From positions 39,930-103,929 of IMG/VR virus record IMGVR_UViG_3300043410_001007: DNA of 64,000 bases. The stretch is one strand, 5' to 3'. Below the pieces are notes generated by a model. The model ran no database searches. It saw only the letters and a program-made list of their open reading frames with translations, and had not been told where the DNA came from. The DNA comes from a virus. The position numbers and the translations under genes were made by a program. Of the stretch, positions 9,001-61,684 are shown piece by piece (within the stretch, counting starts at the first letter, position 1; every line of letters begins with the position of its first letter).

Positions 9001-12000
9001 ACAAGATAGTGATTACAAGGTATCCATGATTACAAAAGGCAGTAAATCGGCGCTAGTAACAATCACATTTACTAGTGGTGTAGTAGCGGTGGGCGACAAC
9101 GTAAAGATTACTTACGAGAACGGTGGCGCTAGTGCTCCTATGATGGAAATGTTAGGCACACCAACGCCAACTACCGGTGCTGTACAGTATGATCTAACTG
9201 GCTTCCTGGGCGATAATAACTATGCGCCGTTCAGTGACTTACGTGTCCTATTCGATAACGCGGCATCTACTCAACCCAACACATTTGTTACACGTTGTGG
9301 TGTTGATTTAGCAGACGGTATGTCTGTGGTAGTTGTCGGTGACGATACTAACAAAATCATTCCTGGTTTCCCATCATCACATGCCGCAGACATTGTGACT
9401 AAGACATATTATCTACGTGATGTAGTCTATCACAGCGACAACTTATGGCAAGATACATTCGGTACTTACACATTCAGATTAGCAACTATCCCAGATGGTC
9501 AGCCAATCGTATTGAGTAGTGGTACAGATGGTACGGGTCAACCGCGCCACCTAACATTTGTAGTCAACAACGATAACTTGATTGTTGAGATTGACGGCAC
9601 ACGTATCAATGGTATCGCTCCTAATACTCTCAAGTACGGCGGTATTGCTACCCCAATCAACAACACAGTAACACTAAGTTACCCAGCACCAGTCTACAGT
9701 CGTGCTACATTCTCATCAAGTTATTTGATTGTGAACATCAACGGCGTGCCTTACTCTGCCGCAAATAATTTCGATAATATCGATCCTGTCTCTGGTGCTA
9801 GTAGACACATTCAGTGGTACACTAACTACGATGCTAATAATAACCTGATGGCTGGCTCTGATGCGACATTCAATGTTGATGATACACTAGCAGACACTGG
9901 AGCATTCTTCGACGCTGGTGACCCATTCGATAATCAAAGCATTATTGACATTGTATTTGCTTACGACCTCACAGGTAGTTCTGGTCTAATATCTACTGAT
10001 ATTATTACTGTTGAATACAACATAGTTGGTAACGCATGGGTATCAGGACAAACATACGAAGTGGGCGATATCGTTACTTACAATGGTGTAATCTTCCGTT
10101 GCTACAGTGATGTTACTAGTGCTACTAATCCAGTAACAGATTACTCTCACTGGTCGACTATTTCTATGTCACCACCTCCGGTGTATGTAGTAGAAGTAAA
10201 TCAAGATACTGCTGGAACTACCGGCGTGAACGAAACTTCTATCGGTGGCACTCTAACGGTTTATGCGCCATGGTTAGATAACACTCACAAAGTATCAGTG
10301 ACATCATTTGGTAGAACTACTCAACAGTATCTCAAGACACAAATCTTGAGTGACATCACTGTCACGCAGGTAACTAACGTTATTGAAATCACAGGTCAAC
10401 CAACAGTTGTCTACACTGGACCAACACTATCACTACCTGGCGCGGCCCATGGCATAAACATCGGCGACTTAGTAATGATCAATGGTACAGCAGTCAAAGA
10501 TTTAGATGGCGGCAACTATTACGCTAAACCAATCGATCTATCAGGAACGCTAGGCTCAACCTACACAGAAGAATACACATTCCAGTTGTTCTCTGATAGT
10601 GGTCTTGTTACACCGATTGATTTAGCAAACCCAGGCGCATTCCAGCCGATAACTACTGGTAAAGAAAGTTATGTACAGTTGTTACAAACTGCGACCAATA
10701 CTGCTTCCATAGCAGTCAACCCAGCGGTCATCAATCAGTCTCAATTCAATTTAGTTGATAAGCAACGCTTATTCGTTTCGTTCACTAAGGACAGTACAGT
10801 CAAAGGTTCAACAGGCCGCTATTACGTACAAACTAGTAAGTTCGATATTGCTACATTAGACTATGTAGATGAAGAGGGAACATCACAAACAGTGTACACT
10901 CTCATCTTGTTACAACCAGTAGTGCCTGGCAATCTGATTACTATCACGAGTATGGTACCAACAGCGTCTCCAGGCGAGAACAGATTACGTATGAATGCTC
11001 AATGGGATACTATCTCTAGTTCAGCAGTAGTGCCGTTCTTGTTCCAGCAAGACCCAGCAAATCAATTGTATTACACTAGTGTGTATCGTGAGCCTGAGGT
11101 TAGTAGAACGCATATTACTGCGGTTAATAGCAGTGATAGTATCACAGTTGCTAACCCATACGCTCTTGTACGTATCTACAACTACACTCGCAATATTAAT
11201 GAAATCGGTGTTCTAAAAACTGGTGAGCACTACGTACTAATCGAAGGCATTACTACTGACGAAATTGCTCAAATCAATATCACTGATAGTACTGGTGTGA
11301 AGATTGAAGAATTCTACTGGGTAAACTCTGGTAACTCATCGAGTGCTCGTATTGTATTCACATTCAACCCTAACTCAAAACTATCGATTGTAGTAGCAGT
11401 AGGCAATAACTTACTAATCAAGGGTGAACAATTACAATATCGTGCTGTAGAACTAGATGTAAACAAGACTAACTATGGTCAAATAACTGGTATTCGTCAT
11501 GCTAGAAATACAACGATTGCCGCTGACCTACAACCATATGATATCGTACAGAGTATCAAAGAAGAAGACCTGATGGCTTCTAGTTTGTACAATAAAACTT
11601 GGTACAGTAATACAGTTACCGCTTTAGTTGATACTAGTGGCGGCGATGTATCTGGTACGTACACACTACAGGACAGTACACTAGAAACATCACTAGTAAA
11701 AGTAGGTGACACGCTCAAGTTCAGCAGTACAAGTAATGATTTCTCTGGTATTGCTTATGTCTACACTGGTCTACAAGCAATCAAGTCGATTGTTAGTGAT
11801 AATGGTACCTATGTAAACTTTGCGATTACTGCGTATGGTGACACCGGATGTGTTATTACAGACCGCTATTACTATGATACTGGTACCAGTACATGGCTGT
11901 ATGATCGCCCATCTACTGGATCTCAGCCAGCTAAGTTTGGTGAGACTATGGTGGTGAGTGGCAATGCTACTGATGGTTACTACATGTCAGTTCGTGTAGA

Positions 12001-24050: not shown

Positions 24051-24479
24051 ATGTTCAAAAAAGAAGATTTACCAGAACCATTTCGCTCAATGACGCCAGA
24101 ACAAGAGAAACAATTTCTACAAGAGATTGATGTGGCTTTGCGTAAGACGGATCACCTATTTGTGCCGCAGGAGATTGAGTATCGTGTGTATTACAACGAG
24201 CGTGGTGAAGTTATTACATACACTACTGAGAAACTACCAGGCGAATACTTAGTAATCACAGTAGATGAATTCAACAGATGTAGACATGATGCGTTGATAC
24301 GTGATGGTCGCCTGATATTTACCAACGGCATCTCGACTGTAATGAAATTAGAACGCGGTGATATTGGTACATTCAAAGTTCATCGAGGTGACATCAGCGT
24401 CCCACTGTATTACTATGAACTCGATAATACTGCCCATGATACTTATCGAGTCAATGTCTACGAAGCTGAACATGAGTGA
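24051..24479 (+). CDS. Conserved phage hypothetical protein
   Basis: 142 residues, ATG 24051 immediately after the upstream stop. Charged, no membrane segment or signal peptide. It has ALRKTDHLF, then EYRVYYNERGEVITYTTE and GEYLVITVDEFN, which looks like a small beta-sheet domain. It is inside the glycosyltransferase operon and overlaps the next gene. Not recognised further. Confidence 0.55.
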   Translation: MFKKEDLPEPFRSMTPEQEKQFLQEIDVALRKTDHLFVPQEIEYRVYYNERGEVITYTTEKLPGEYLVITVDEFNRCRHDALIRDGRLIFTNGISTVMKLERGDIGTFKVHRGDISVPLYYYELDNTAHDTYRVNVYEAEHE

Positions 24480-25380
24480 TACCGAAATCGTACATATCGA
24501 TGAACTAGACTTGGTCTATCTTAGTTACGATGAACCACAAAAAGAAGAGTTCTGGGTTAGACTGAAAGCAATTGCTCCCTGGGCAAAACGAGTAGACGGC
24601 ATAAAGGGCAGTGATACAGCACACAAAGCGGCTGCAGCCGCAAGTACTACAGAGCGCTTTATTCTAGTTGATGGTGATAATCTAGTTCAGCCGGAATTCT
24701 TCGATCAATACTTAGAAATAACTCCTGAAAATCGTTACTGTCAGTTTAGATGGAGAGCACGTAATCACATCAACGGCTTACATTACGGTAACGGTGGCAT
24801 CTCTTCTTGGACTAAATCGTATGTAAATTCAATGAGAACACATGAGAATAGTGCGGGATCTGATAAGACTAATATTGAGTTTTGTTTCGACAGTAATTAC
24901 TGGCCGCTACATAACTGCTACTCTACTAGTTACGCTAATTACTCGCCAAAGCAAGCATGGCGTGCTGGATTCAGAGAGGGAGTAAAATTATGTAGTCGTA
25001 ACGGCAAGATGCCCGAAAACACCCGCGGCTTCAAAGACTGGGTATTCAAACGCAACTATCAAAATCTTTCTATCTGGCACACTATCGGTCGTGATGTAGA
25101 GAACGGATTCTGGTCCTTACTGGGCGCACGACTTGGTACTCACTATCTGATGCTACGAGAGTGGGATTATGTAGAGGTACAAGATTTCGATTGCTTAGAT
25201 AGATTATGGGAACTACATAAAAACGACGATGAACAAACTGCCTCAGTAATCGCCAGAGAACTAAACTCTGAACTAGACACTAACATTGTTGAACTCAATA
25301 GCGAGGCTAGTAAGTTCTTCAAAGATTACATTGCTAGTCAGTGGCAAAACAAAACAATAATGACTAGAGAAGGTCAATGA
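24472..25380 (+). CDS. GT-A-like glycosyltransferase with DGD motif
   Basis: 302 residues from ATG 24472, which overlaps the preceding stop. The frame is open further upstream and ATG 24454 is an alternative. The sequence LVYLSYDEPQKEEFW, then RVDGIKG, ERFILVDGDNLVQPEFFD and GNGGISSW fits a GT-A transferase, with DGD (about residue 65) as DxD. It is a paralogue of the protein at 27989-29074, sharing WFILxxGxx and WR(A/T)(A/G)FREAVKLC patterns. It overlaps the radical SAM gene by 4 bases, so the genes are probably made together. Confidence 0.55.
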   Translation: MSDTEIVHIDELDLVYLSYDEPQKEEFWVRLKAIAPWAKRVDGIKGSDTAHKAAAAASTTERFILVDGDNLVQPEFFDQYLEITPENRYCQFRWRARNHINGLHYGNGGISSWTKSYVNSMRTHENSAGSDKTNIEFCFDSNYWPLHNCYSTSYANYSPKQAWRAGFREGVKLCSRNGKMPENTRGFKDWVFKRNYQNLSIWHTIGRDVENGFWSLLGARLGTHYLMLREWDYVEVQDFDCLDRLWELHKNDDEQTASVIARELNSELDTNIVELNSEASKFFKDYIASQWQNKTIMTREGQ

Positions 25381-26768
25381 CCAACACAAGAACAATTCGC
25401 ATCAAAGAAGTGCGTGACGAAATCAATAACATCTCGCCATCATTCTGTGCCGCAAAGTGGAAGCAAGTGACCCTACACTTACAGAACGGTCACACTCATA
25501 GTTGCCATCACCCGGCCACTCACATTGTTCCGCTTGATGAGTTAGTAGAAAACCCTAGTGCCCTACACAATACAGCATACAAAAAGAACATTCGACAAGC
25601 CATGCTAGATGGCCTTAGGCCACAGGAGTGCTCGTATTGCTGGCGCTCAGAAGACAGTGGAACTTTACTAAGTGATCGTGTTTTAAAAAGCGGTGAAACT
25701 TGGGCCAGACCACACATACCAGATATTGTTAGTAAGCCTGCTACTGATGATGTATTTCCTAGTTATGTAGAAGTATCATTTAGTAATGTGTGTAATTTTA
25801 AGTGTAGTTATTGTAGTCCAAACGTTAGTAGCGCATGGATGGAAGAAATTCAGCAATATGGTGGGTATCCAACAAAATCTAAGTTCAATGATATCGAGGG
25901 ATTTGTAGTTACTAAAAAGATACCTTATCTAGCACGTGAGCATAATCCGTACGTAGAAGCATTCTGGCAATGGTGGCCAGAATTGTATGCTAAATTAGAA
26001 GAGTTTCGCATCACCGGTGGCGAACCGCTACTATCAAAAGATACATTCAGGGTACTAGACTACGTTATTGAGAATCCCAACCCACGCCTGAAACTCAGTA
26101 TCAATACTAATCTAAATGCCCCCGACGGCTTGAATGATAAACTAATCGAACGATTCAAGCGAATACAGGAGTTAGGTGCGGTCAAAGAACTACAACTATT
26201 CACTAGTTGCGAAGCGGTTGGTGCCCAAGCAGAATACATTCGATACGGCATGAACTACAATGCCTGGCTAGAAAATCTAGACCGAATGCTCACTGAACTA
26301 CCAGACGTTCATGTTACTGTTATGAGTACATACAATATTCTAAGTCTTACTACCTATGATAGATTCTTAGCAGATATCTATGCGATGAAGAAGAAGCACG
26401 AGGCTACTACCAGAAAAAATAAACGTCAACCACTGCTAATCGACATACCATTCTTGTATCGTCCAGAGCATCAAGCACCATACATCTTTGGTGAAGAGTT
26501 TATCCACTACGCAAGTTCAAGTTTAAAATACATGACTGAGAACGCTCTCAAAGTACCAGGCAATATCTCGGGATTTCTACCACACGAGATTGATGGTATG
26601 CGCCGGGTAGTCAATATGATGAATGATAGCGCTAAAAAGGATTACATGGCAGCAAGACAAGATTTAGTTCGCTTTGTTGATGAGCATGACCATCGCCGCG
26701 GTACTAACTTTTTAGAAACATTCCCTGAATATCACGGAATCTACAAATACACTAAGCACACTCTCTAA
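25377..26768 (+). CDS. Radical SAM protein
   Basis: 463 residues, ATG 25377 in ATGA overlap with the glycosyltransferase. CNFKCSYC (about residues 138-145) is the CX3CX2C motif for the SAM-binding 4Fe-4S cluster, and RITGGEPLLS further on is the GGE motif. N-terminal CHHP and ECSYCW cysteines may hold a second cluster or zinc, as in phage 'twitch domain' radical SAM proteins. The reaction is unknown; peptide or small-molecule modification is typical for SPASM/twitch relatives. The gene ends convergently with, and overlaps by 4 bases, the minus-strand hydroxylase-like gene. Confidence 0.8.
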   Translation: MTNTRTIRIKEVRDEINNISPSFCAAKWKQVTLHLQNGHTHSCHHPATHIVPLDELVENPSALHNTAYKKNIRQAMLDGLRPQECSYCWRSEDSGTLLSDRVLKSGETWARPHIPDIVSKPATDDVFPSYVEVSFSNVCNFKCSYCSPNVSSAWMEEIQQYGGYPTKSKFNDIEGFVVTKKIPYLAREHNPYVEAFWQWWPELYAKLEEFRITGGEPLLSKDTFRVLDYVIENPNPRLKLSINTNLNAPDGLNDKLIERFKRIQELGAVKELQLFTSCEAVGAQAEYIRYGMNYNAWLENLDRMLTELPDVHVTVMSTYNILSLTTYDRFLADIYAMKKKHEATTRKNKRQPLLIDIPFLYRPEHQAPYIFGEEFIHYASSSLKYMTENALKVPGNISGFLPHEIDGMRRVVNMMNDSAKKDYMAARQDLVRFVDEHDHRRGTNFLETFPEYHGIYKYTKHTL

Positions 26769-27301
26769 ACGCCACAAACGACTAGATGAATCCTCTCTTC
26801 GTTTCCGCCGTTGTAGACCCAATGAACTTCACGTGTATCTACACGCCACCAGTGACCGTCAGCGGGTATGTGATAACACGTGGCCACTACAGACTCCGGA
26901 CTGTTCTGTTCAATGACAAAATCGCTAGCACGGGCGATGTAAGCGTTGGGGTTAGTTTTCAACGCTAGATGATACCTTATTTCATCATCACGATGAACAC
27001 TCAAGCCAGTTTTAGGTAGTAATCTCATAAAACGAACTCTACCGATCTGACCAACACGCTCAGACAACTTCTCAATAGATCGTCTTATGTAGTAATCATC
27101 ACCTATGGTCCACTGATTGAATTCAATTTCACTAGACAGCTTAGTATTTGTTGTGCGATCATACAAGCTACCGGTAGCATCCAACCATCTGTCCTCTGCG
27201 CCATATCTGTATCTAAGACCAATCTGATTTCGGTCACCCCACTTACATTGTGTAAGAACTCGTTCTAGGTTAGCATTGACCCGATCTAAATCGACCTTCA
27301 T
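26765..27301 (-). CDS. Aspartyl/asparaginyl hydroxylase-like 2OG-Fe(II) oxygenase
   Basis: 178 residues from ATG 27301; TTG at 27322 (with GGAG just upstream) or 27334 would add 7 or 11 residues. VHRDDE followed by RYHLAL, and C-terminal WWRVDTREVHWVYNGG with RIHLVV, give the HxD...H iron ligands and the R-x-H 2-oxoglutarate contact of the Asp/Asn beta-hydroxylase family (PF05118 type). The likely reaction is 2-oxoglutarate and O2-dependent hydroxylation; the substrate is unknown. It follows the methyltransferase-like gene and probably shares its transcript. Confidence 0.6.
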   Translation of the reverse strand: MKVDLDRVNANLERVLTQCKWGDRNQIGLRYRYGAEDRWLDATGSLYDRTTNTKLSSEIEFNQWTIGDDYYIRRSIEKLSERVGQIGRVRFMRLLPKTGLSVHRDDEIRYHLALKTNPNAYIARASDFVIEQNSPESVVATCYHIPADGHWWRVDTREVHWVYNGGNEERIHLVVCGV

Positions 27302-27312
27302 TTTTGTACGTT

Positions 27313-27960
27313 TTAGAAACAATTTTTTCTCCAAATAGCCATGTAGCGAGTGTACATATTAGTTACCAACTCACCTTCATAGTAGATACGTGAGTTATCA
27401 CGTTTGTTCATCCTAATAAATTCATCTAAGCTAGAGCTACAACGGACATGCTCTACGCAATCAAAATAGTTGTTGCCTTGTACTGCCACCAATGTGCCAT
27501 TAGGTATCTTTTTGTACCATTCATCATACACCTCTTGTGTAACGTGCTCACTACTAGTGTTGATTACGATGTCTGGACGATACTGATTACTGTACACATA
27601 GGTCTTCATGTCGGCGGTTTCGGCTTTGAATTTCCAACTGTTAATCTCGTGAGGTTTGTTTACTGTATCCGCAATAGTTTCGCACCACGGATCTAAGTCA
27701 ATACTACGAATACGACGAACTTCGATATCATCGTGTTCCATAATCATACTAGCAAGAATACCAATCCAGCCACCAAAAATGTAAATATTAGCAGGACCCA
27801 TAGTAAACTCAGCCAACTCACTAACTAACCATGCTTTACTATCTAACTGACCATCCCATAGCGCATCAAGCGCACGTGTACGCTCCTCGTGCGAGAGCAA
27901 ATTTCTAATAGCATTCATCCAGTGGGCCAGGGCACCCACACTAACTCTAAAATCTTTCAT
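27313..27960 (-). CDS. SAM methyltransferase-like protein
   Basis: 215 residues, minus-strand ATG at 27960. IYIFGGWIGILA looks like a motif I glycine loop, RSIDLDPWC like the acidic end of strand 2, and VINTSSEHV like motif IV of class I SAM-dependent methyltransferases. I know similar proteins from T4-like phages. A late octamer ends 5 bases before the ATG with no ribosome binding site between. The next minus-strand gene starts at or near its end. Substrate unknown; weak enough that a non-catalytic relative is possible. Confidence 0.5.
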   Translation of the reverse strand: MKDFRVSVGALAHWMNAIRNLLSHEERTRALDALWDGQLDSKAWLVSELAEFTMGPANIYIFGGWIGILASMIMEHDDIEVRRIRSIDLDPWCETIADTVNKPHEINSWKFKAETADMKTYVYSNQYRPDIVINTSSEHVTQEVYDEWYKKIPNGTLVAVQGNNYFDCVEHVRCSSSLDEFIRMNKRDNSRIYYEGELVTNMYTRYMAIWRKNCF

Positions 27961-27965
27961 TACAT

Positions 27966-27973
27966 TATTTAGT
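27966..27973 (-). promoter_or_regulatory. Late promoter octamer, minus strand
   Basis: ACTAAATA read on the minus strand, ending 5 bases before ATG 27960. It is half of a back-to-back promoter pair. Confidence 0.55.
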
Positions 27974-27974
27974 T

Positions 27975-27982
27975 AGTAAATA
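27975..27982 (+). promoter_or_regulatory. Late promoter octamer, plus strand
   Basis: AGTAAATA, ending 6 bases before ATG 27989. It forms a palindromic pair (TATTTA-GTTAG-TAAATA) with the minus-strand octamer. Confidence 0.5.
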
Positions 27983-27988
27983 GATGCT

Positions 27989-29074
27989 ATGATAGAAAGT
28001 GAAGATTACTGGGAAGTGCCAGATGGATTAGATACATCACGTTTCAACTTTAGATGGACACCATCAGTAAGAGAAGACGGGCATATCATCGAATTTGGTA
28101 CACAATGGCAGGACACTGGCGGCCCACGATACGTGTGTGCTGGCGCTACTACTACGATCTACAATACCACACAACGTGCGATAAATCTACCAGATAAAAA
28201 AAACTGGCGACTACACCAAGACATAGAATGGACTGACTTTGATTTCAGTTGGCATCCAAACTCAACAGAACTTCCACACAACTATCAATTCTTCGATAGA
28301 GATTATCCAAGAAGTAATACCTATCGTCCAATAGAATACTATCAAGGTCCTAATTTACCAATCAAGGTCATTTCTACACCACGTGCTAAGATAAAATATC
28401 GACCACTAGATATTGTCTACATGAGTAATGGTGAACCAGACGAGGAACTCAGATACAACAGATTATGTGAACTTGCTGGTCGATCAGTTATCTGGGTGCG
28501 TGGTGTAAACGGCAGAGAGAATGCTATTAGACGTGCGGCCGAACTTAGTACTACATCTTGGTTCATACTGTTTCCTGGTAAATTATGGGCAGACCAACAC
28601 TTCGACTTTGACTATCAACCACGCAGAGACTATGAGCCTAAGCACTACATATTCTACGCTACTAATCCCCTAAATGATTTACAGTATGGTCACCAAGCGG
28701 CAGTATGCTATCACAGGGAACTAGTATTAGAAACAATCAACTACGGCTTAGATTTTACAATGAGTAAACTACATGATATCGTACCAGTCAATAGCGGTAT
28801 TGCTCAATACAATGTAAACCCACTCATTACATGGCGAACAGCATTCCGTGAAGCGGTAAAATTATGTGCCGCCAATGACGATGAGAGTAAGCAACGATTA
28901 GAGGTATGGCGAACATACGCTCGTGGCGATAATTGCGAGTGGAGTTTATTAGGCGCACAAGACGGTATCGAATACTACAATCAAGTCAGTGGTGAACATA
29001 GTGAACTAATGAAGACATTCGAGTGGAGTTGGTTAGATAGATATTACAAAGCAAAGTATGAAGTACACAAGTAG
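27989..29074 (+). CDS. Glycosyltransferase-like protein lacking the DxD motif
   Basis: 361 residues, ATG 27989. The second half aligns with the DGD glycosyltransferase at 24472-25380: DIVYMSNGEPDEE, WVRGVNG, TTSWFILFPGKLW and WRTAFREAVKLCAAN. At the place of the DGD motif this copy reads FPGK, so it may have lost metal-dependent transfer and act as a binding or regulatory partner. The first half (RFNFRWTP..., DFDFSWHPN repeated) is a Trp-rich beta region, possibly two related repeats. It overlaps the QueC-like gene by 17 bases. Confidence 0.5.
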   Translation: MIESEDYWEVPDGLDTSRFNFRWTPSVREDGHIIEFGTQWQDTGGPRYVCAGATTTIYNTTQRAINLPDKKNWRLHQDIEWTDFDFSWHPNSTELPHNYQFFDRDYPRSNTYRPIEYYQGPNLPIKVISTPRAKIKYRPLDIVYMSNGEPDEELRYNRLCELAGRSVIWVRGVNGRENAIRRAAELSTTSWFILFPGKLWADQHFDFDYQPRRDYEPKHYIFYATNPLNDLQYGHQAAVCYHRELVLETINYGLDFTMSKLHDIVPVNSGIAQYNVNPLITWRTAFREAVKLCAANDDESKQRLEVWRTYARGDNCEWSLLGAQDGIEYYNQVSGEHSELMKTFEWSWLDRYYKAKYEVHK

Positions 29075-31847: not shown

Positions 31848-32954
31848 ATGTCCGCATCTGTATCTGACGTCCATAGCGTCAACGCCATCGCCGCTCGTAA
31901 AGCACTACTCACCGCATTCGCTGTGAATCGTCCCGTATTCTTGTGGGGTCCTCCTGGTATCGGTAAGTCCGAAGTCGTTGCTGAGATTACCGAGGAACTT
32001 GGCGGCTACATGGTAGACTTGCGTATGGCCCAGATGGAACCTACGGACATCCGTGGCATTCCCTTCTTCAATAAAGATATCGGCAAGATGGACTGGGCAC
32101 CTCCTGTTGACTTGCCCGACGAGGAACTTGCTTCTCAGTATCCCGTAATCGTCCTGTTCTTGGATGAAATGAACTCTGCCGCACCTAGTGTACAAGCCGC
32201 CGGTTATCAACTTATTCTCAACCGTCGTGTTGGTAAGTATGTTCTCCCTGACAATGTTGTAATCGTTGCCGCTGGTAACCGTGATAGTGACAAGGGCGTT
32301 ACCTATCGTATGCCCATGCCGCTTGCTAACCGCTTTGTTCACGTTGAAATGAAGCCTGACTTTACATCATGGCAAGCATGGGCTCTCGACAATGACATTC
32401 ACCGTGATGTTGTTGGTTACCTCTCATTCGCTAAGAGTGATATGTATGACTTCGATGCTAAGTCCTCTTCTAAGGCATTTGCTACACCTCGTTCGTGGGT
32501 ATTTGTTAGCCAGTTGCTACAAAAAGAAGACGACATGGACACTGATACCCTGTTCACTCTTGTATCAGGTAGTGTCGGTGAAGGTCTTGCCGCAAAATTC
32601 ATGGCTCACCGCAAGTTCGCTGGTCGTCTGCCCAAAGCCGAAGACATCCTGTCCGGCAAAGTAACTGACCTCGATGTAAAAGAAGTCTCTGCTATGTATT
32701 CACTGACCGTTAGCTTGTGCTACGAGTTGCGTGATGCTAAGGAAAACAAAGTCGCACCTGACGAGTTGAACAAGATGACTGACAACTTCATCACCTACAT
32801 GATGAAAAACTTCGAGACTGAGTTGGTCATCATGGGTGCTAAGACTGCGCTGGTATCTTACGGTATCCCGCTGAACCCAATGAAGATGAAGTCTTTTGAC
32901 GAATTCAACAAGAAGTTCGGCAAGTTCATCAAGGCAGCCGCAGCCACACGCTAA
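31848..32954 (+). CDS. MoxR-family AAA+ ATPase
   Basis: 368 residues, ATG 31848. Walker A GPPGIGKSE (about residues 33-41), Walker B VILFLDEMNSA (about residues 100-110), sensor region VAAGNRDSDKG and the YRMPMPLANRFVHVEM arginine-finger stretch place it with MoxR AAA+ ATPases. These work as chaperone-like remodelers with VWA proteins, often for metal insertion or activation of a target complex. The next gene encodes a VWA protein with an HExxH motif, the usual partner. Both have strong early-type promoters, and codon use differs from the virion genes, with less CTA and CTAG. Confidence 0.85.
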   Translation: MSASVSDVHSVNAIAARKALLTAFAVNRPVFLWGPPGIGKSEVVAEITEELGGYMVDLRMAQMEPTDIRGIPFFNKDIGKMDWAPPVDLPDEELASQYPVIVLFLDEMNSAAPSVQAAGYQLILNRRVGKYVLPDNVVIVAAGNRDSDKGVTYRMPMPLANRFVHVEMKPDFTSWQAWALDNDIHRDVVGYLSFAKSDMYDFDAKSSSKAFATPRSWVFVSQLLQKEDDMDTDTLFTLVSGSVGEGLAAKFMAHRKFAGRLPKAEDILSGKVTDLDVKEVSAMYSLTVSLCYELRDAKENKVAPDELNKMTDNFITYMMKNFETELVIMGAKTALVSYGIPLNPMKMKSFDEFNKKFGKFIKAAAATR

Positions 32955-32961
32955 AAGCCTC

Positions 32962-32999
32962 AACCCAGACTTGACAAACGTTCAAGTCTGGGTTATAAT
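32962..32999 (+). promoter_or_regulatory. Consensus sigma-70 promoter inside a perfect inverted repeat
   Basis: TTGACA (32971-32976), 17-base spacer, TATAAT (32994-32999). A 13-bp perfect inverted repeat (32962-32974 and 32982-32994, loop of 7) covers the -35, most of the spacer and the first base of the -10. It can form a hairpin at the end of the moxR mRNA and could be an operator. Confidence 0.85.
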
Positions 33000-33023
33000 A
33001 TACTTTTACTCACTGGATTTCGT

Positions 33024-34307
33024 ATGACCACAATGACGACCGCTACAAAAAAGAAAAGCAAAAATAAAGACCAGTTCGATAATTTGATTGGACCAGTGGA
33101 TCGTGCTATTGATAACGAGGCCCGTGACCGCCTTATTATCGCTCGTACATCACTCTTACTAAAGCACTCATTCTTCGGTAACCTCGCCACTCGCTTGAAA
33201 TTAGTCAACGCTGACGAATGGTTGCCTACGGCCGCTACGGACGGCAAACACTTCTATTACAATAGTCGCTTCATTATGATGTTGCGCCCTGGCGAGGTAG
33301 AATTCCTAGTCGGTCACGAAGTTCTCCACGTTGTGTATGACCACATGGGTCGCCGTGATGACCGTGACCCACAGATGTGGAACATTGCCGATGACTATGC
33401 GGTCAATGCTGATTTGAAGCGTCATCGTGTTGGTGACTTCATTACCTCTGTACCATGCTTGTATGAAAGCAAGTATGACGGCAAGGGCGCTGAGCATATC
33501 TATGATGACTTGATGAAGAACGCTAAGAACATCGACCTCGACTCCCTGCTCGATCAACTGCTCGATCAACACATGGACGAGCAAGACGGTGATGGTGACG
33601 GTGATGACGACAACGAAGGCAAGGGCCCTGCTAAAATGTCGCAAGAGGAGCGTGACCAACTCAAGCAAGAAATCAAGCAGAATATCATCAACGCCGCTCG
33701 TCAAGCTAAGGAAGCTGGTCACTCATTGCCCGGTGAAGTTGAGCGCATGGTAAACGATATTACCGAGCCCAAGATGCCCTGGCGTGAGTTGATTCAAGCG
33801 AACTTGACTGCTACTATTCGCACTGACTATTCATTCATGCGCCCGTCTCGTCGTAGCTGGCACATGGACGCTATCATGGCAGGTCGTGCGCCTGGTGAAG
33901 AAGTCGATATCGTTGTAGCACTTGACACTTCGGGTAGTATCTCTAATGATGATATCAAGGTATTCTTGGGTGAAATTCAAGGTATCATGGATTCATTCTC
34001 GGGTTACAAAATCAAAGTATTCTGCTTCGACACTGGCACTCACAATCCCGCTGAGTACACTAGTGAGAACCTTGAAAGTATTACTGAGTATATTCCTGGC
34101 GGTGGCGGTGGCACAGACTTTACTTGTATCTTCAAGTACTTGAAAGAGGAAGCAATCGTTCCTAATCGCTTGGTAGTGTTTACTGATATGTGTCCGTTCG
34201 GTAGTTGGGGTGATCCTGATTATTGCGACACTACCTGGATCGGCGTAGGCAGTTACGCTAAGTCAGTGACTCCTCCTTGGGGAGCCTGGGCATACTATAC
34301 TGAGTAA
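33024..34307 (+). CDS. VWA-domain protein with HExxH metallopeptidase-like motif
   Basis: 427 residues, ATG 33024. The N-terminal part has GHEVLHVVYDH (HExxH at about residues 97-101), a zinc-metallopeptidase-like motif. An acidic linker (Asp/Glu/Gly rich, about residues 183-205) follows. The C-terminal VWA domain starts with VVALDTSGSIS (about residues 296-306), an intact MIDAS DxSxS. The arrangement is that of the VWA-like/DUF2201 'putative metallopeptidase' family commonly paired with MoxR. With the upstream ATPase it likely forms an ATP-driven remodelling pair. The target in the phage-infected cell is unknown. The next gene overlaps the stop by 1 base. Confidence 0.8.
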   Translation: MTTMTTATKKKSKNKDQFDNLIGPVDRAIDNEARDRLIIARTSLLLKHSFFGNLATRLKLVNADEWLPTAATDGKHFYYNSRFIMMLRPGEVEFLVGHEVLHVVYDHMGRRDDRDPQMWNIADDYAVNADLKRHRVGDFITSVPCLYESKYDGKGAEHIYDDLMKNAKNIDLDSLLDQLLDQHMDEQDGDGDGDDDNEGKGPAKMSQEERDQLKQEIKQNIINAARQAKEAGHSLPGEVERMVNDITEPKMPWRELIQANLTATIRTDYSFMRPSRRSWHMDAIMAGRAPGEEVDIVVALDTSGSISNDDIKVFLGEIQGIMDSFSGYKIKVFCFDTGTHNPAEYTSENLESITEYIPGGGGGTDFTCIFKYLKEEAIVPNRLVVFTDMCPFGSWGDPDYCDTTWIGVGSYAKSVTPPWGAWAYYTE

Positions 34308-55764: not shown

Positions 55765-55787
55765 AAAGGGGCTTACGAGCCCCTTTT
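55765..55787. terminator. Bidirectional Rho-independent terminator
   Basis: AAAGGGGCT-TACG-AGCCCCTTTT between convergent genes (plus strand to 55763, minus strand to 55789). Confidence 0.9.
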
Positions 55788-55788
55788 C

Positions 55789-56253
55789 TTATAGCTTCTG
55801 ATACATCACATGATACTGTGGTAACAATCCCATCTTCTTAGCACTAGCTAAACGCACGGTATTATCAACATGGACAACACTTTGAATACTAGTACACTTG
55901 AGTGACTTGCCAATATGCTCTATGTAATGATGCATTAGTGTGTACAAACCTCTGCCTCTTGCTTCTGGCGCAACAGCACTAAGAGTAATCCAAATCATCT
56001 GCTTCTCTACATTGTGTAGATAGACGATATGACCTAGAATAGTACCATCTAACTCAGTAGCATAAACAGCACCGTGAGTGTCTTCCCAAGTCGTAGTAGG
56101 ATTACTGTGACCATTGTCAATTAGGTCAGCCATTTGTCTCAGAAAGAACGAGTACATCTCACTTCCACCAATCTTCGCCACAGTTTTCACTAGTATTGAG
56201 CGGCCGTGTTTATCTTTTTCATCTGTTACGCTGGTTGGTTGTACTGTAATCAT
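55789..56253 (-). CDS. GNAT-family N-acetyltransferase
   Basis: 154 residues, minus-strand ATG 56253. VAPEARGRGLYTLMHHYIEHI is motif A (RxxGxG/A) for acetyl-CoA binding; IQSVVHVDNTVRLASAKKMGL is the typical C-terminal N...A...K.GF block. It should transfer an acetyl group to an amine; substrate unknown. A late octamer (minus strand) ends 5 bases before the ATG. It is the last gene of the minus-strand island. Confidence 0.75.
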   Translation of the reverse strand: MITVQPTSVTDEKDKHGRSILVKTVAKIGGSEMYSFFLRQMADLIDNGHSNPTTTWEDTHGAVYATELDGTILGHIVYLHNVEKQMIWITLSAVAPEARGRGLYTLMHHYIEHIGKSLKCTSIQSVVHVDNTVRLASAKKMGLLPQYHVMYQKL

Positions 56254-56258
56254 ACAGC

Positions 56259-56266
56259 TATTTAGA
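56259..56266 (-). promoter_or_regulatory. Late promoter octamer, minus strand
   Basis: TCTAAATA on the minus strand, 5 bases before ATG 56253; no ribosome binding site between. Confidence 0.5.
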
Positions 56267-56268
56267 TA

Positions 56269-56400
56269 TTATCTCATGTAGTATGAAAATTCACCAAGAG
56301 CCTTGTTATATGATTCGCTAGGAAATAGAAATGGCAGAGAGATAAAACTTATAGCGCATATGATTACTAATGCGATTGAATATAACTCTCGCCACTTCAT
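56269..56400 (-). CDS. Small single-pass membrane protein
   Basis: 43 residues, ATG at 56400 overlapping the stop of the oxygenase-like gene (ATGA on the minus strand). A hydrophobic segment (about residues 8-26, IALVIICAISFISLPFLF) predicts one membrane helix; a short polar tail follows. It is too small to be the TctB membrane subunit of a tripartite tricarboxylate transporter. Coupling suggests it is made with the oxygenase-like and TctC proteins. Confidence 0.55.
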   Translation of the reverse strand: MKWRELYSIALVIICAISFISLPFLFPSESYNKALGEFSYYMR

Positions 56401-56990
56401 TTGAACTTTTCCGGTAGGGCATTGAAACTTACTTGAAAGTTAGTTCGTCTACTAGTTACATTCTCGACACTGTGGATTACCTGTGTATTCAGAATATACC
56501 AACAGTTATGTGGTCCCTGAATCTTGTCTAGTAGTTTCAAGTGACTACTACGTTCAACTGCTAGTCCACGCTCACGTAATACAGGATGGCCATCTTCTTG
56601 CCAGAAACTCAATGTAGCATCAGGGCCACCAGTTTCGATGTTGTATAGTAATACGAACTCTCTGGTAGTATCAGTGTGTGGTAGTTGCTCTTTATCAAAG
56701 AACATCACGCCGCTATTGTTTTCTTCAAAAGTATCGATGATGTTCTCTCTGACCCACTGAGTGTATTCATCATTGAAACGATATCTAATGTTCTGGTTAC
56801 TAGCCATTGGTTTGATCCAGTTGTATGTCTGGTCTTGCCAATCGTCAGTCTTATCGATAGATAGATAATCTAGATTGTCGGATTTGAATAGACCTAAATC
56901 TGGACGATATACTCGGTCAATCTTATCGATTAACTCTGCTGGTGGACTAGGTAAGTCCAGAACTTTATAATACCATTCCATGACGTTCAC
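56397..56990 (-). CDS. 2OG-Fe(II) oxygenase-like protein
   Basis: 197 residues, minus-strand ATG 56990 in overlap with the TctC stop. PHTDTTREFVLLYNIE gives HxD, and NTQVIHSVENVTSRRTNFQVSF gives the distal His and Arg of the 2-oxoglutarate oxygenase double-stranded beta helix. No family name can be set by eye; many T4-like phages have such proteins. Substrate unknown. It sits between TctC and the small membrane protein in one overlapping transcription unit. Confidence 0.55.
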   Translation of the reverse strand: MNVMEWYYKVLDLPSPPAELIDKIDRVYRPDLGLFKSDNLDYLSIDKTDDWQDQTYNWIKPMASNQNIRYRFNDEYTQWVRENIIDTFEENNSGVMFFDKEQLPHTDTTREFVLLYNIETGGPDATLSFWQEDGHPVLRERGLAVERSSHLKLLDKIQGPHNCWYILNTQVIHSVENVTSRRTNFQVSFNALPEKFK

Positions 56991-57898
56991 TTCATTGTTT
57001 TCTTAGCAACTTCACTTACTTCTTCCCAGTGTTTTGCCTGCTCATTGTACCAAGCGTCTAGCTTGTTCGTAGGTACATCTAGTGGAGAGCCGAAATCAAC
57101 TTGGTAAGTATTGAGTACGGCATCAGTTCTTGATGCTTTATAAAGAATGTTTCTAAGCTCAGTGAATTTTTCTTCTGGCATAGAACGTGGTGCTACTAGG
57201 TGATTAGGGTTGCTCATCTTGGTAAACACTTGTGGGAAGCCACTACTTACATAAGTTGGCCGACCATTTACTGACTTAGATCCTGTGATGCCTAGAATAG
57301 TTACTTTCTTGCCATCTTCACCATTGACCCACTTCTCTTGTTCGCCCATGAAGCCGATACTAATATCTAAGTTACCTGATAACATTGACATTAGAGCATC
57401 AGTAGTTGATTTGAATGGAACAATAGTAGCATTAGGATACTTGGTCATAATCTGTACTGATGATAGATGACTTACTACGCCTAAACCACTAACGCCGATG
57501 TTGATAGGAGCGTTAGTTGGAATTTCTTTCCATGATTTGTACTTCACACTAGCAGCCGACATAGGAGCAGAAGTCTGTGGTAGTAGTTCTCTGAAGTCAG
57601 AGATTTTGTGACTTTCGTTAGGGAAGAAATTAGGGCGAACAAAGAAAGCACCACTGGTAGCTAAGATAGTGTTTGGTGTATTTGCTACATGACGACTAGC
57701 GATACTACCACCAGCACCTGGTTTAGCATCGAATACAAATGTGTATTTGTCTTGTGCTTTGTTTGCTTCTTCTACGAGTACACGACTGTAGTTTGCCATC
57801 GTATCACTGACACTAAACGCATACACAACTGTGATAGTTTCGCCAGCATGGGCTAGTGCGCCAAGTGATAGTAGAATAGAGAGTAATAGTTTTTTCAT
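56987..57898 (-). CDS. TctC/Bug-type periplasmic substrate-binding protein, copy 1
   Basis: 303 residues, signal peptide MKKLLLSILLSLGALAHA (cut before GE). FDAKPGAGGSIASRHVANTP is the conserved ligand-loop block of Bug/TctC proteins of the tripartite tricarboxylate transporters; FKSTTDALMSMLSGNLDISIG follows. Usual length is about 300. It would bind a carboxylate or similar ligand in the periplasm and present it to host TctAB permeases; no permease is seen in this window. Copy 2 at 58689 has the same layout, so this is a phage gene family. A dyad lies just upstream. Confidence 0.8.
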   Translation of the reverse strand: MKKLLLSILLSLGALAHAGETITVVYAFSVSDTMANYSRVLVEEANKAQDKYTFVFDAKPGAGGSIASRHVANTPNTILATSGAFFVRPNFFPNESHKISDFRELLPQTSAPMSAASVKYKSWKEIPTNAPINIGVSGLGVVSHLSSVQIMTKYPNATIVPFKSTTDALMSMLSGNLDISIGFMGEQEKWVNGEDGKKVTILGITGSKSVNGRPTYVSSGFPQVFTKMSNPNHLVAPRSMPEEKFTELRNILYKASRTDAVLNTYQVDFGSPLDVPTNKLDAWYNEQAKHWEEVSEVAKKTMK

Positions 57899-57914
57899 GT
57901 TGAATCCTTGATTA

Positions 57915-57934
57915 TGTACATTGATTTATGTACA
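57915..57934. promoter_or_regulatory. Candidate operator dyad upstream of TctC copy 1
   Basis: TGTACAT-TGATTT-ATGTACA: nearly full 7-bp arms with 6-base centre, between luxR-type gene and tctC. It could be a site for the neighbouring regulator or part of the promoter (ACATAAAT on the minus strand). Confidence 0.4.
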
Positions 57935-57962
57935 CTACACGCGGTCAACACTATACTTTCGT

Positions 57963-58640
57963 TTATCTGGTTACGTCTGTTTTGTTAGCGAGTGCTAGTT
58001 GTGTTCTGGTCTTCAAACCAAACTTACGAAGAATAATACTAACGTGGTTCTTTACAGCCTGCTCACTTATCTTTAGCGCACCCGCAATTTGTTTGTTTGA
58101 CATACCACGCTTGGCTACCATGTTGAAAATCTGTGACTGCCTGTCAGTGAGGGCAATAGAGTTCTTCTTTACTGTGTTTGTATCCTTGATACACACGGCC
58201 GGCCAATGAGCATCGCCTGCTACAAGTGTCTGATACGCAGTAATAGTATGCTTCTTATCAAAGAATCGCATTGCTGGTATGATACCTAGAACACAGTTTC
58301 TTTTTAGCTTGACTAGAGTATTCTTGTCTAATGCCCTATCAGAAACAACAGCAATATCTACGGTCTTCTTATTAGCAACGAACTTCACTAGTGATGATAG
58401 CATACTCAGCACTTCGTCCAGCATCATATGCTCACGCTCTAAGAAATCTAAACGAAATACGATTAGTAGTGACTGCTCTGGAGCTTCCAATAACTCGGTC
58501 ATCACTGATGACCAAGTGCCGCTTATTCTGATATCTATCTCTGCTTCCCTACGTAATACGTCCACCACCTCACTAATAGATGATAGTTCATCTATACTCG
58601 ATGGGTCAACAGTAGGGCGAAAGTAGATAACGGTAGACAT
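57963..58640 (-). CDS. LuxR/NarL-family transcriptional regulator
   Basis: 225 residues, minus-strand ATG 58640. C-terminal IALTDRQSQIFNMVAKRGMS, then NKQIAGALKISEQAVKNHVS and ILRKFGLKTRTQLA is a complete GerE/LuxR helix-turn-helix (about residues 162-220). The N-terminal part follows a receiver fold (LLIVFRLD, IAVVSD, LGIIPAMRF, LVAGDAHWP) but the usual phosphoacceptor Asp and Lys are unclear, so it may be a pseudo-receiver. Placed between two TctC genes it probably controls them or host metabolic genes. Its start codon directly follows a terminator-like hairpin. Confidence 0.8.
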   Translation of the reverse strand: MSTVIYFRPTVDPSSIDELSSISEVVDVLRREAEIDIRISGTWSSVMTELLEAPEQSLLIVFRLDFLEREHMMLDEVLSMLSSLVKFVANKKTVDIAVVSDRALDKNTLVKLKRNCVLGIIPAMRFFDKKHTITAYQTLVAGDAHWPAVCIKDTNTVKKNSIALTDRQSQIFNMVAKRGMSNKQIAGALKISEQAVKNHVSIILRKFGLKTRTQLALANKTDVTR

Positions 58641-58667
58641 AAAAAAGCCTAGCGTTAGCTAGGCTTT
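58641..58667 (-). terminator. Rho-independent terminator overlapping the luxR leader
   Basis: Minus strand: AAAGCCTAGC-TAAC-GCTAGGCTTT then TTT, immediately followed by the luxR-type ATG. It ends the TctC copy 2 mRNA. The AGG in the right arm may be the only ribosome binding site of luxR. Confidence 0.85.
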
Positions 58668-58676
58668 GTATTTAGA
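58668..58676 (-). promoter_or_regulatory. Late promoter-like octamer, minus strand
   Basis: TCTAAATAC on the minus strand; transcription would start inside the hairpin and give a leader of about 23 bases for the regulator. Confidence 0.45.
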
Positions 58677-58688
58677 AGTCTTTGACTA

Positions 58689-59588
58689 TCAGTTAATTTT
58701 TACTTTGCTTGCTAATGACTTCCAGTAAGCAGTACTAGTAGTGAAGAACTTGTCTAGGCCGGCTTCGTTAATGTTAGCTGGTTCACAGTAGTCAACAGCA
58801 TAAGCGGCACGTACACTATCAGTCTTAGCAGCCTTAGCGAAGATTTCATAGAACTCCCGGCGCTTTGCACTATCAACTGTATCTGGTAGTAAGAGGTGAT
58901 GACCAACGTTCATCTGTGCGAATGTCCCTGGGAAACCTTCACTCACCAGTGTTGGGTAACCGTTTACACGTTTGGTGCCTGTAATGCCTAGTACGTTTAC
59001 TTGTCGACCTTTGTTGTCTTTAGCCCACTGCTCAGCTTCCGAGATGAATCCGATGTGGAAGTCTGTCTGACCACTGACCATACTCAACATACTGTCGTTA
59101 GTTGATTTGAATGGAACAATGTTCATGTTCTTGTACTTCTCTTTTAGTTCAAGTGCTGCCAAATGTGTGGTAACACCTAGGCCACTAATACCGACGCTAG
59201 CGTCCTGTGGTACTTCCTGCCATGACTTGTACTTGACGCTAGTAACTGCCATAGGAGCAGTACAGTGTACATACTGTTCACGCATCTTAGTCAAGTCGTA
59301 ACTCTCGTTAGGGAATACAACTGGACGAACGAAGAACGCAGTAGAGTGAGCAAGAATAGAATTTGGTGTATTCAGAACATGATTTACTGCGATAGCGCCG
59401 CCAGCACCTGGCTTAGTATCAAAGATAAAGTTGTATTTGTTTTGAATTTTGTTTGCTTCGTTAGCTAAAGTGCGGTGATAGTTAGCAACACTATCGCCTG
59501 GACCCCAAGCATAGAAGATTGTGATGTTTTCAGCCGCACTAGCACCGAATGCCATTGCCGCTAATAACAGAGCGAGTAGTTTTTTCAT
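58689..59588 (-). CDS. TctC/Bug-type periplasmic substrate-binding protein, copy 2
   Basis: 299 residues, signal peptide MKKLLALLLAAMAFGASA. Conserved blocks as in copy 1: FDTKPGAGGAIAVNHVLNTP, AFFVRPVVFPNESY, GISGLGVTTHLA, FKSTNDSMLSMVSGQTDF. Both phage copies are closer to each other by eye than to bacterial TctC proteins that I know, so they probably duplicated in the phage lineage; ligand specificity likely differs. AAGGAAATCCT precedes ATG, and the gene ends at a terminator hairpin before luxR. Confidence 0.8.
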   Translation of the reverse strand: MKKLLALLLAAMAFGASAAENITIFYAWGPGDSVANYHRTLANEANKIQNKYNFIFDTKPGAGGAIAVNHVLNTPNSILAHSTAFFVRPVVFPNESYDLTKMREQYVHCTAPMAVTSVKYKSWQEVPQDASVGISGLGVTTHLAALELKEKYKNMNIVPFKSTNDSMLSMVSGQTDFHIGFISEAEQWAKDNKGRQVNVLGITGTKRVNGYPTLVSEGFPGTFAQMNVGHHLLLPDTVDSAKRREFYEIFAKAAKTDSVRAAYAVDYCEPANINEAGLDKFFTTSTAYWKSLASKVKIN

Positions 59589-59612
59589 AGGATTTCCTTT
59601 GTAATGATGCTT

Positions 59613-59620
59613 TATTTACG
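59613..59620 (-). promoter_or_regulatory. Late promoter-like octamer, minus strand
   Basis: CGTAAATA on the minus strand, 24 bases before ATG 59588. Confidence 0.4.
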
Positions 59621-59644
59621 CACTACAAAAGAGTCCAATAAATT

Positions 59645-60886
59645 TTACCAAGACCTTTTGTAATTTACAATCTTATTATGGAAGAATTCACGCACAAGCG
59701 GATCACCAACATACATCATTTCATAGTCACCGGTAAGTCCCAATCTACTTACCGGCAATTTTCCCTGGTCAACATTACTATTGTCTTGTGATATGGTGAT
59801 GTTATTCATACTATCAATTTTGATTTTGAAGTTACGGTACCAGTCATTCTTATCGACGCTCCAAATGTAATCTCTGGCAACATTTTTGTAACTAGAATGT
59901 GTTGATTGGATTTTTAGACCATTGTTGTTATTGACCATTGACCAACGTTGAAAATCTGTGCCACTGTACCAGTTCATAATAGTATCAATACATGTTCGCC
60001 ATTCAATACGATCATTGTAATAAAGAGCACCACGAACAGCACAATTTGAGTATTTGATGTTAAAAATTTCCCACCAGAAAAAATCATGTAAGGAATGTAC
60101 TGGTACACTAGCAGTCTTTACGTTGTGGTCCATCTTTTCATACATTAATCTACCAAATTCAGGATTAGATTCAATCTGTAGGTGACGAATAATGATTTCT
60201 TTGTAATTGCTGTAATGAACGTTACCATCTGAGATTTTGTATTTTAGCGGCGCCAATTTACTCCTAACTTCTGGACTCATCTCCTGTAGATAATAATCGT
60301 AATTTGCGTAAAGTTGTAGACCAAATACAGTACCGAAAATACCATCACCCTCATCAGCAGTAATAGGCACGTATCCCTGTTCTATGAGATCGTGATACTT
60401 GTTGATAGAACTATCTCTGATAACAAATTTGTCTACGATCTGAGTAGCCCAGAAGTAAGGATTTTCCATGATAGTATCGGCACTACTACACACGACCACG
60501 CTCTTTAATTCTTCTTTGGTGAGATTTCTAATAAGAGCGCACATAACAGCAGTACTATCAATGCCACCACTGTACATCATGGCAAATTTCTCACCGTTGC
60601 TGATACGTGCTTTTACTTCACACGCACGAGCGTCACTGACCTCTTCAAACGTCTTGTTGAAATTAGGGTCATAAGATGGCATTTCAAATCCTGGAATCAC
60701 ATCCTGTTCCCATGGCAATTCCCATACACCGTTTCTGGCAACAAATCGACACGGATTAAAACGTCTAGAAATATCGATAATAAATTTCCCATCAACACCA
60801 GCTGATGCGTAGACAGAATTCCAATAATTATTATTGTATCCGTTAAATGAAATGCTTGAAAATAATAATGGTTTTTCTAAGTTCAT
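59645..60886 (-). CDS. Asparagine-synthetase-like PP-loop protein
   Basis: 413 residues, ATG 60886 overlapping the stop of the upstream gene (minus strand ATGA). MYSGGIDSTAVMCALI (PP-loop SGGxDST, about residues 105-120) and ADEGDGIFGTVFG correspond to the ATP and Asp sites of the AsnB synthetase domain. The N-terminal glutaminase domain (Cys2 nucleophile) is absent: the start is MNLEKP and not MC. So ammonia would have to come from elsewhere, or the enzyme forms an amide on a non-aspartate substrate as in beta-lactam synthetase or peptide-modifying relatives. Substrate unknown. Confidence 0.65.
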   Translation of the reverse strand: MNLEKPLLFSSISFNGYNNNYWNSVYASAGVDGKFIIDISRRFNPCRFVARNGVWELPWEQDVIPGFEMPSYDPNFNKTFEEVSDARACEVKARISNGEKFAMMYSGGIDSTAVMCALIRNLTKEELKSVVVCSSADTIMENPYFWATQIVDKFVIRDSSINKYHDLIEQGYVPITADEGDGIFGTVFGLQLYANYDYYLQEMSPEVRSKLAPLKYKISDGNVHYSNYKEIIIRHLQIESNPEFGRLMYEKMDHNVKTASVPVHSLHDFFWWEIFNIKYSNCAVRGALYYNDRIEWRTCIDTIMNWYSGTDFQRWSMVNNNNGLKIQSTHSSYKNVARDYIWSVDKNDWYRNFKIKIDSMNNITISQDNSNVDQGKLPVSRLGLTGDYEMMYVGDPLVREFFHNKIVNYKRSW

Positions 60887-61650
60887 AATAATGATGTTGA
60901 GATTGTTACTGGCTTGAATTTTTTGTGTTCGTTAAGTTCATCTGGAAAACCTCTACCTAGATTACGATAGAACGATGTCATGAGAAATTCCTGCTCGGCA
61001 TGACATTCTTTCCAAATATCAATAATTCTTTGTTCTGCCTCTTCAATAGTATTACTGATGTACAAGGCATAACGAATATTAAAGAATACGCCCCTCTCAG
61101 CGTTACTACGATCATACATCCCGGTCAATGTTCCATCGACTGTTTCTGTTAATTTTTTAGGTATGTATTTGTCCATAAATGATTGGTTATCCATCCAATT
61201 GGCCATGGCGTCAGTAATTTTACATACATAAACCACATCTCTTACGTACTCAGCATATTCTTGGAGCCGTTCTAAGATTTCTATTTTTTCCGGAGTATTG
61301 TAATCTGGATTTGGTCCAACATTTTCAATTGGATTAGTATCGTATGGAATAAACATCAAACACGGCGTTTGACTGCGATTAACGATACTAACCGTTTGAA
61401 TAGTTTGATTTGTCTTATTAGTAATGGTATAGTCAAGGCAATTTTTTATATTCAGGTCAAACTTAATGGTATGTAATACATATGCTAAAGTTGGTAATTT
61501 ACTACTTAAAATCTCAGCAGTTTCTAAAGTTGCCCATACATCACTATCGTCTATCAAAATAAATCGATCCAATCCTGGAGCAAAAATACCATGAAGTCGT
61601 CTACGCATATAAGCATCACGATAAATGAATCCAACTTTTGTATTTTTCAT
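60883..61650 (-). CDS. Hypothetical protein, partner of the AsnB-like gene
   Basis: 255 residues from ATG 61650, 7 bases after AGGA; TTG 61656 is too near that site. It overlaps the AsnB-like gene (ATGA). VGFIYRDAYMRRRLHGIFAPGLDRFILIDDSDVW at the start suggests an alpha/beta fold, with DDSD acidic, and later SIVNRSQTPCLMFIPYD. No known family seen. Tight coupling suggests a shared pathway with the AsnB-like protein. Confidence 0.6.
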   Translation of the reverse strand: MKNTKVGFIYRDAYMRRRLHGIFAPGLDRFILIDDSDVWATLETAEILSSKLPTLAYVLHTIKFDLNIKNCLDYTITNKTNQTIQTVSIVNRSQTPCLMFIPYDTNPIENVGPNPDYNTPEKIEILERLQEYAEYVRDVVYVCKITDAMANWMDNQSFMDKYIPKKLTETVDGTLTGMYDRSNAERGVFFNIRYALYISNTIEEAEQRIIDIWKECHAEQEFLMTSFYRNLGRGFPDELNEHKKFKPVTISTSLL

Positions 61651-61684
61651 TGACAAATCCTGTAAATAGTGATATACTTATCAC
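61650..61684 (+). promoter_or_regulatory. Sigma-70-type promoter with dyad over the -10
   Basis: TTGACA (61650-61655), 17-base spacer, TATACT (61673-61678). GTGATA-TACT-TATCAC (61669-61684) is a 6-4-6 inverted repeat over the -10, a likely repressor site. Confidence 0.8.

Follow-up and report, generated by a model that had tools for sequence, protein, structure and literature searches.

An island of eight genes in a phage genome raises the question of why a virus would encode two receptors (TctC) of the tripartite tricarboxylate transporter (TTT) family with a LuxR-type regulator set between them. The window analyzed here is the last 64 kb (64,000 nucleotides; positions 39,930 to 103,929) of the 103,929-bp virus record IMGVR_UViG_3300043410_001007, which carries T4-like genes (portal, major head protein, baseplate wedge, and clamp loader). 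The island occupies window positions 55789-61650 on the minus strand and comprises eight open reading frames (ORFs), all uninterrupted. Exactly two TctC genes occur in the 103.9-kb record, and neither TctA nor DctP was found in that record, which may be a fragment. We give about an even chance to the reading that the island serves the phage as a module for capturing and processing carboxylates, expressed late and equipped with a pseudo-receiver regulator. From 61650 down to 55789, its genes are as follows.

60883..61650, minus strand: P7, 255 aa, no known fold, first gene of the P7-AsnB4 pair, ATG start at 61650
59645..60886, minus strand: AsnB4, a 413-aa asparagine-synthetase-like ATP pyrophosphatase (SGGIDST and DEGDxIFGT), assigned from motifs, a family alignment, and AlphaFold (AF2) fold matches
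58689..59588, minus strand: TctC-A, TTT receptor with signal peptide (PF03401, E 1.3e-7)
57963..58640, minus strand: LuxR/NarL-type regulator, pseudo-receiver plus GerE helix-turn-helix (HTH) (PF00196, E 2.8e-15)
56987..57898, minus strand: TctC-B, second receptor with signal peptide (PF03401, E 8.8e-7)
56397..56990, minus strand: OG59, 2-oxoglutarate (2OG)-Fe(II)-oxygenase-like, GTG start overlapping the TctC-B stop
56269..56400, minus strand: 43-aa protein with one transmembrane segment, overlapping the OG59 stop (a 47-aa hydrophobic ORF lies at the same position in contig L071)
55789..56253, minus strand: GNAT acetyltransferase of the module's own family (PF00583, E 6.3e-10)

An earlier reading of this DNA, made from its letters without database searches (the sequence-only reading), had listed these eight minus-strand genes; all are present and intact, which rules out gene degradation. 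The 4-base overlaps of P7 with AsnB4, TctC-B with the oxygenase gene, and the oxygenase gene with the 43-aa ORF suggest translational coupling.

Scans of IMG/VR returned 52 TctC loci, 29 LuxR loci, 25 P7 loci, and 467 viral contigs (L112-L185 and others) encoding a relative of the DctP family. In every one of 32 loci, AsnB4 lay directly 3' of P7 and in the same orientation, and the gene after AsnB4 was TctC in 11 cases, GNAT in 8, DctP in 4, and a second AsnB-like family in 2; these neighbor counts take in some near-identical contigs. The full order P7-AsnB4-TctC-DctP-GNAT was found in two contigs, L087 and L088, where the GNAT family of the window follows DctP; the same family follows AsnB4 in L101-L107. 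DctP lay within three genes of TctC in 43 of 60 TctC loci. The P7-AsnB4 pair was also present on two bacterial genome contigs: on L110 it is followed by an OG59-like protein (59% identical to OG59), and on L111 it has DctP, AMP-ligase, SDR, BKACE, and desaturase-like genes nearby, with clpX/clpP-like genes on the contig. AMP-ligase, SDR, and BKACE genes stand directly 5' of the pair in viral contigs L087 (3278-6221) and L039 (83-3064). Judged by gene order, the strongest conserved core is P7-AsnB4-(TctC)-(DctP)-GNAT, not LuxR plus TctC. The sequence-only reading had proposed a search for the same gene order elsewhere, and the order does recur in other phage contigs, distant phages included; its emphasis on a LuxR gene between two TctC genes missed the enzyme core P7-AsnB4 and the two bacterial chromosomal versions of that core. 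In INPHARED, no TctC or AsnB4 relative was found, and the matches to DctP and LuxR were weak and mostly bacterial-looking.

Both TctCs of the window exceed the curated PF03401 cutoff (31.8 and 29.1 bits versus 27) and are 47-48% identical to each other. By a simple rule devised for this analysis, signal peptides were called in 81 of 82 viral TctCs (both window copies included) versus 0 of 35 DctPs. Among solved structures, a profile of the viral TctCs matched the terephthalate receptor TphC (4.8e-24; structure 7ndr, which we take to be TphC), BugD, and Bug27, with TphC and BugD as the best matches. A single-protein query for cellular TctCs (E ≤ 1e-20) found none in 399 genomes; because that search had no positive control, a profile was used to collect cellular sequences. 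In a tree of 77 viral TctCs and a small sample of 17 cellular ones, the viral sequences formed one side of a branch (support, 92/95), and both window copies fell inside an all-viral clade of 37 (100/99). TctC-A belonged to an all-viral subclade of 12 rows (100/100), and TctC-B was grouped with the L003 and L071 copies (100/100). With both receptors in a phage clade, this comparison, also suggested earlier, does not indicate unrelated single acquisitions. Cells encode many orphan TctCs and few TctABs, and a role for TctC in signaling is also on record (PMC5812351). The phage receptors resemble orphan TctC/Bug proteins and TphC-type TTT receptors in fold family, signal peptide, and the pattern of many receptors with few permeases (PMC5812351, PMC8556258); they differ in forming a phage clade apart from the sampled cellular TctCs, in an altered PFxAGGxxD motif, and in their neighbors AsnB4, OG59, and LuxR.

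G461 also has LuxR, TctA, and TctC-like genes at this Hyd46-PhoH position, so the site is an insertion hotspot, and the variable gene content would likewise fit a collection of unrelated accessory genes, with the clamp-loader region on one side and the Hyd46/PhoH genes on the other. Such a collection is very improbable, however, given that distant phages and two bacterial genome contigs share the gene order, that frames overlap, and that the TctC clade is phage-specific, and it is further disfavored by the 32/32 pairing of P7 with AsnB4 and the repeated coupling of TctC with OG59.

The processing half of the proposed module rests on P7, AsnB4, OG59, and GNAT. The best start of P7 is the ATG at 61650, in place of a mechanically called TTG at 61656; the protein matched no Pfam family, its AF2 model was poor (predicted local distance difference test [pLDDT], 62), and no PDB fold match was found. 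AsnB4 fell below the PF00733 cutoff (E 0.0098). Among PDB structures, its AF2 model (pLDDT 91.8) best matched asparagine synthetase, TsnB9, and carbapenam/beta-lactam synthetases; the four highest-ranked of these Foldseek matches have probabilities of 0.96-0.99 but are remote (E about 3e-3; TM-score, 0.2-0.34). Neither the family search nor the model revealed an N-terminal glutaminase domain, and the PP-loop begins at residue 106. The model thus identifies AsnB4 as a synthetase domain of the AsnB type, divergent and lacking glutaminase. It shares the PP-loop SGGIDST and the synthetase-domain fold with asparagine synthetase, the beta-lactam and carbapenam synthetases, and TsnB9 but differs from them in the missing glutaminase, the low TM-score, and the constant partner P7. 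In cells, AsnB4 was rare (8 of 144 genomes of one class, mostly as weak matches, and 1 of 298 genomes of one order). OG59 matched no Pfam family; residues H105, D107, H173, and R182 (HxD..H..R) are invariant in six relatives, which supports its predicted identity as a 2OG oxygenase. A search with close relatives of OG59 yielded four viral loci. The gene lies directly 3' of a TctC or TctC-like gene in L071, L244, and L246/L207 (TctA precedes in L246), and its relative in L245 comes after DctP and a DUF2061 protein. A dN/dS approach was set aside, as synonymous divergence was saturated in both comparisons computed.

The main rival explanation concerns this same core, which might tailor the envelope or a small molecule: P7-AsnB4-GNAT-oxygenase would amidate or acylate an envelope component, or make a small product whose role would be to shield the phage factory or keep other phages out, and the receptors would be product carriers or sensors, not nutrient importers. 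Receptor-less P7-AsnB4-GNAT modules in L101-L107, beside a penicillin-binding-protein-like DD-peptidase (identified by eye) and other envelope-like genes, would fit such a role. So would the AMP-ligase, SDR, and BKACE genes, which lie upstream of the pair in L087 and L039 and recur near the module on L111 together with desaturase- and hydroxylase-like genes; the beta-lactam and carbapenam synthetases among the relatives of AsnB; and a cytoplasmic DctP unable to serve a transporter of the tripartite ATP-independent periplasmic (TRAP) type. We nevertheless consider tailoring unlikely, as receptors are the commonest neighbors of P7-AsnB4, permeases are added in some relatives, and neither a carrier protein nor an exporter was seen beside the module.

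Of 28 related virus records, 3 have TctA and 2 have DctM. Permeases in a few relatives are as expected if transport is the purpose, and the existence of relatives bearing TctA or DctM led us to reject permease absence as a general feature. The earlier proposal that the phage retargets a host TctAB transporter is supported in part, by receptors without a permease in the record, by the phage TctC clade, and by the few relatives that have TctA(B) or a TRAP permease; it missed the enzyme core. Some related phages supply their own permease; the others presumably use that of the host, an arrangement also proposed for orphan TctCs of cells (PMC5812351). In L182 (6811-10939), DctQ-DctM-DctP, the DctP with a signal peptide, is followed by a DctP without one; this virus contig has a complete TRAP transporter. 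TctB-like and TctA genes were seen in a 158-kb virus record (L206:4100-8063) beside a flavin-dependent halogenase-like protein (identified by eye). In L157 and L177, a DctP-like gene without a signal peptide lies amid T4-like tail, portal, and packaging genes.

A known phage-borne binding protein, cyanophage PstS, relies on a host permease. Like the TctCs, PstS is a phage-made periplasmic binding protein; it is encoded by Synechococcus viruses, and phage genes are under host PhoBR control (PMC10976474). The island differs in its TTT-family carboxylate receptors, two paralogues, own regulator, and linked ligase, oxygenase, and GNAT genes, with permeases in some relatives. A report of tctA in SUP05 viruses (PMC4164917) is an earlier instance of a TTT gene in viral contigs, but it concerns a protein domain match only, to a permease subunit and without a module. 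That report and a review citing it were all that a partial coverage of the literature yielded on phage TctC/TRAP receptors, which is weak as evidence of absence.

The regulator has VraR, NarL, and VpsT as PDB relatives, and its N-terminal half is partly alignable to NarL and VpsT. That half is a degenerate receiver: 27 relatives show no conservation of the acidic pair or of the phospho-Asp. The protein had been described as response-regulator-like; the GerE HTH is present, but the phospho-receiver pocket is not conserved, and, judged by sequence, the protein does not qualify as a true response regulator. With NarL-, VraR-, and VpsT-type LuxR regulators it shares a C-terminal GerE HTH and a receiver-like N-terminal half; unlike them, the phage family has no conserved phosphorylation pocket and also occurs in possible tandem fusions. 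The 29 viral LuxR loci came from an alignment scan, a single-protein scan having returned nothing. Dedicated control by a regulator in the middle of the island, as the sequence-only reading had it, is supported in part. The order LuxR-TctC-oxygenase-47-aa ORF-DctP in L071 corresponds to that of the window, and L071 is the one contig that repeats LuxR-TctC-oxygenase-small ORF. LuxR is followed by TctA and two TctC-like genes in L208, and a TctC domain and GerE (the LuxR HTH) are fused in one protein in L062. In the nearest relative, L003, however, the two TctC genes are adjacent and a LuxR pair lies about 5 kb off, beside another gene, so that the placement of the regulator between TctCs is not conserved, and most LuxR genes lie away from TctC. 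From these gene orders, the LuxR-TctC link is real, not exclusive. The grouping of TctC and LuxR as one cluster was rejected as a single-linkage effect whose source is the L062 fusion. This fusion (L062:8605-9693) begins with a signal-peptide-like segment, and a start at its internal Met would leave the protein in the cytoplasm. In L060, L061, L072, L073, and L077, proteins that match the phage LuxR family over two segments may be tandem fusions.

A regulator beside receptors could also point to a signal-sensing set, in which the TctCs are periplasmic ligand sensors and LuxR or a TctC-LuxR fusion adapts the timing of phage genes to the nutrient state of the host. Bordetella BctC, which acts with BctE in signaling (PMC5812351), offers a precedent; the L062 fusion, with its internal Met after the signal-like segment, the adjoining LuxR and TctC genes in the window, L071, and L208, and the LuxR relatives that adjoin other phage genes, as in L003 and L060 among others, would fit as well. 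Yet no sensor kinase lies within the island, LuxR has no phospho-site, and AsnB4, the oxygenase, and GNAT would be left unexplained, which makes sensing improbable.

Late expression of the island is suggested by promoter-like elements, which stand with hairpins and a palindrome as follows.

59613..59620, minus strand: CGTAAATA, late-promoter-like variant 32 nt 5' of TctC-A
58669..58676, minus strand: TCTAAATA, late-promoter-like element 5' of LuxR
58644..58667, minus strand: terminator-like hairpin after TctC-A (10-bp stem, loop of 4, T-run), abutting the LuxR ATG
57923..57930, minus strand: CATAAATC, late-promoter-like variant 5' of TctC-B (CATAAAT also 5' of the L071 and L003 copies)
57915..57934, minus strand: perfect palindrome TGTACAT-N6-ATGTACA, the sole exact match in the window, which overlaps the promoter-like region of TctC-B
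56259..56266, minus strand: TCTAAATA, late-promoter-like element 5' of GNAT
55765..55786, minus strand: terminator-like hairpin at the island end

The 7-mer CTAAATA occurs in the 70 nt preceding 6 of 59 genes (expected, about 0.2). At 58640-58676, the LuxR ATG comes right behind the terminator-like hairpin, and a Shine-Dalgarno sequence is not visible. The palindrome is a possible operator; a conserved operator was rejected, as relatives carry different palindromes at the same place. Elsewhere in the window, radical SAM and Asp/Asn-hydroxylase-like genes lie between two mutually similar unknown proteins of 340 and 361 aa (24358-29074), an AAA ATPase adjoins a DUF2201 putative metallopeptidase/VWA protein (31848-34307), and an ORF of 4225 aa is open at the window edge (2-12679).

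If the island captures and processes carboxylates, TctC-A and TctC-B would be exported to the periplasm of the infected cell, bind small carboxylates, and pass them to a host TctAB permease; in a few relatives the phage itself encodes TctA(B) or DctQM. Acting in the cytoplasm, the ligase AsnB4 and its partner P7 would activate a carboxylate and amidate or couple it, and the oxygenase and GNAT would tailor the product; many related phages add a DctP-fold binding protein without a signal peptide. The genes would be expressed late, and the pseudo-receiver LuxR protein probably tunes expression to ligand presence or cell state. Several points weigh against this reading. The presence of a host TctAB is assumed. 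The PFxAGGxxD motif conserved in TTT substrate-binding proteins (PMC8556258) is absent from both window TctCs, which have FYAWGPGDS and VYAFSVSDT at its position; because the motif is altered in both, permease docking or the ligand class may be different. Because no receptor adjoins P7-AsnB4-GNAT in L101-L107, the enzymes may act on a substrate that is not imported. In large phages, LuxR relatives mostly adjoin other phage genes, not TctC, and the TctC-like proteins of L207 and L208 are weak family matches.

More broadly, and with somewhat less than even confidence, we propose that large phages carry an undescribed carboxylate capture-and-tailoring system composed of P7-AsnB4, periplasmic TctC, a cytoplasmic DctP-fold protein, an oxygenase, and GNAT. 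Some versions would include a TTT or TRAP permease of their own and a regulator, either with a pseudo-receiver or fused to TctC, and the system would be akin to rare clusters on bacterial chromosomes that have no assigned product. The island is a variant of phage-borne binding proteins with a possibly undescribed enzyme core. The island offers a direct test of the role of a TTT receptor without a permease. If the proposal is true, it would give a context to the phage DctP-like gene without a signal peptide, relatives of which occur in those 467 viral contigs, and phages, beyond boosting host metabolism, would equip the infected cell with receptors, enzymes, and now and then permeases of their own for importing and using a specific organic acid.

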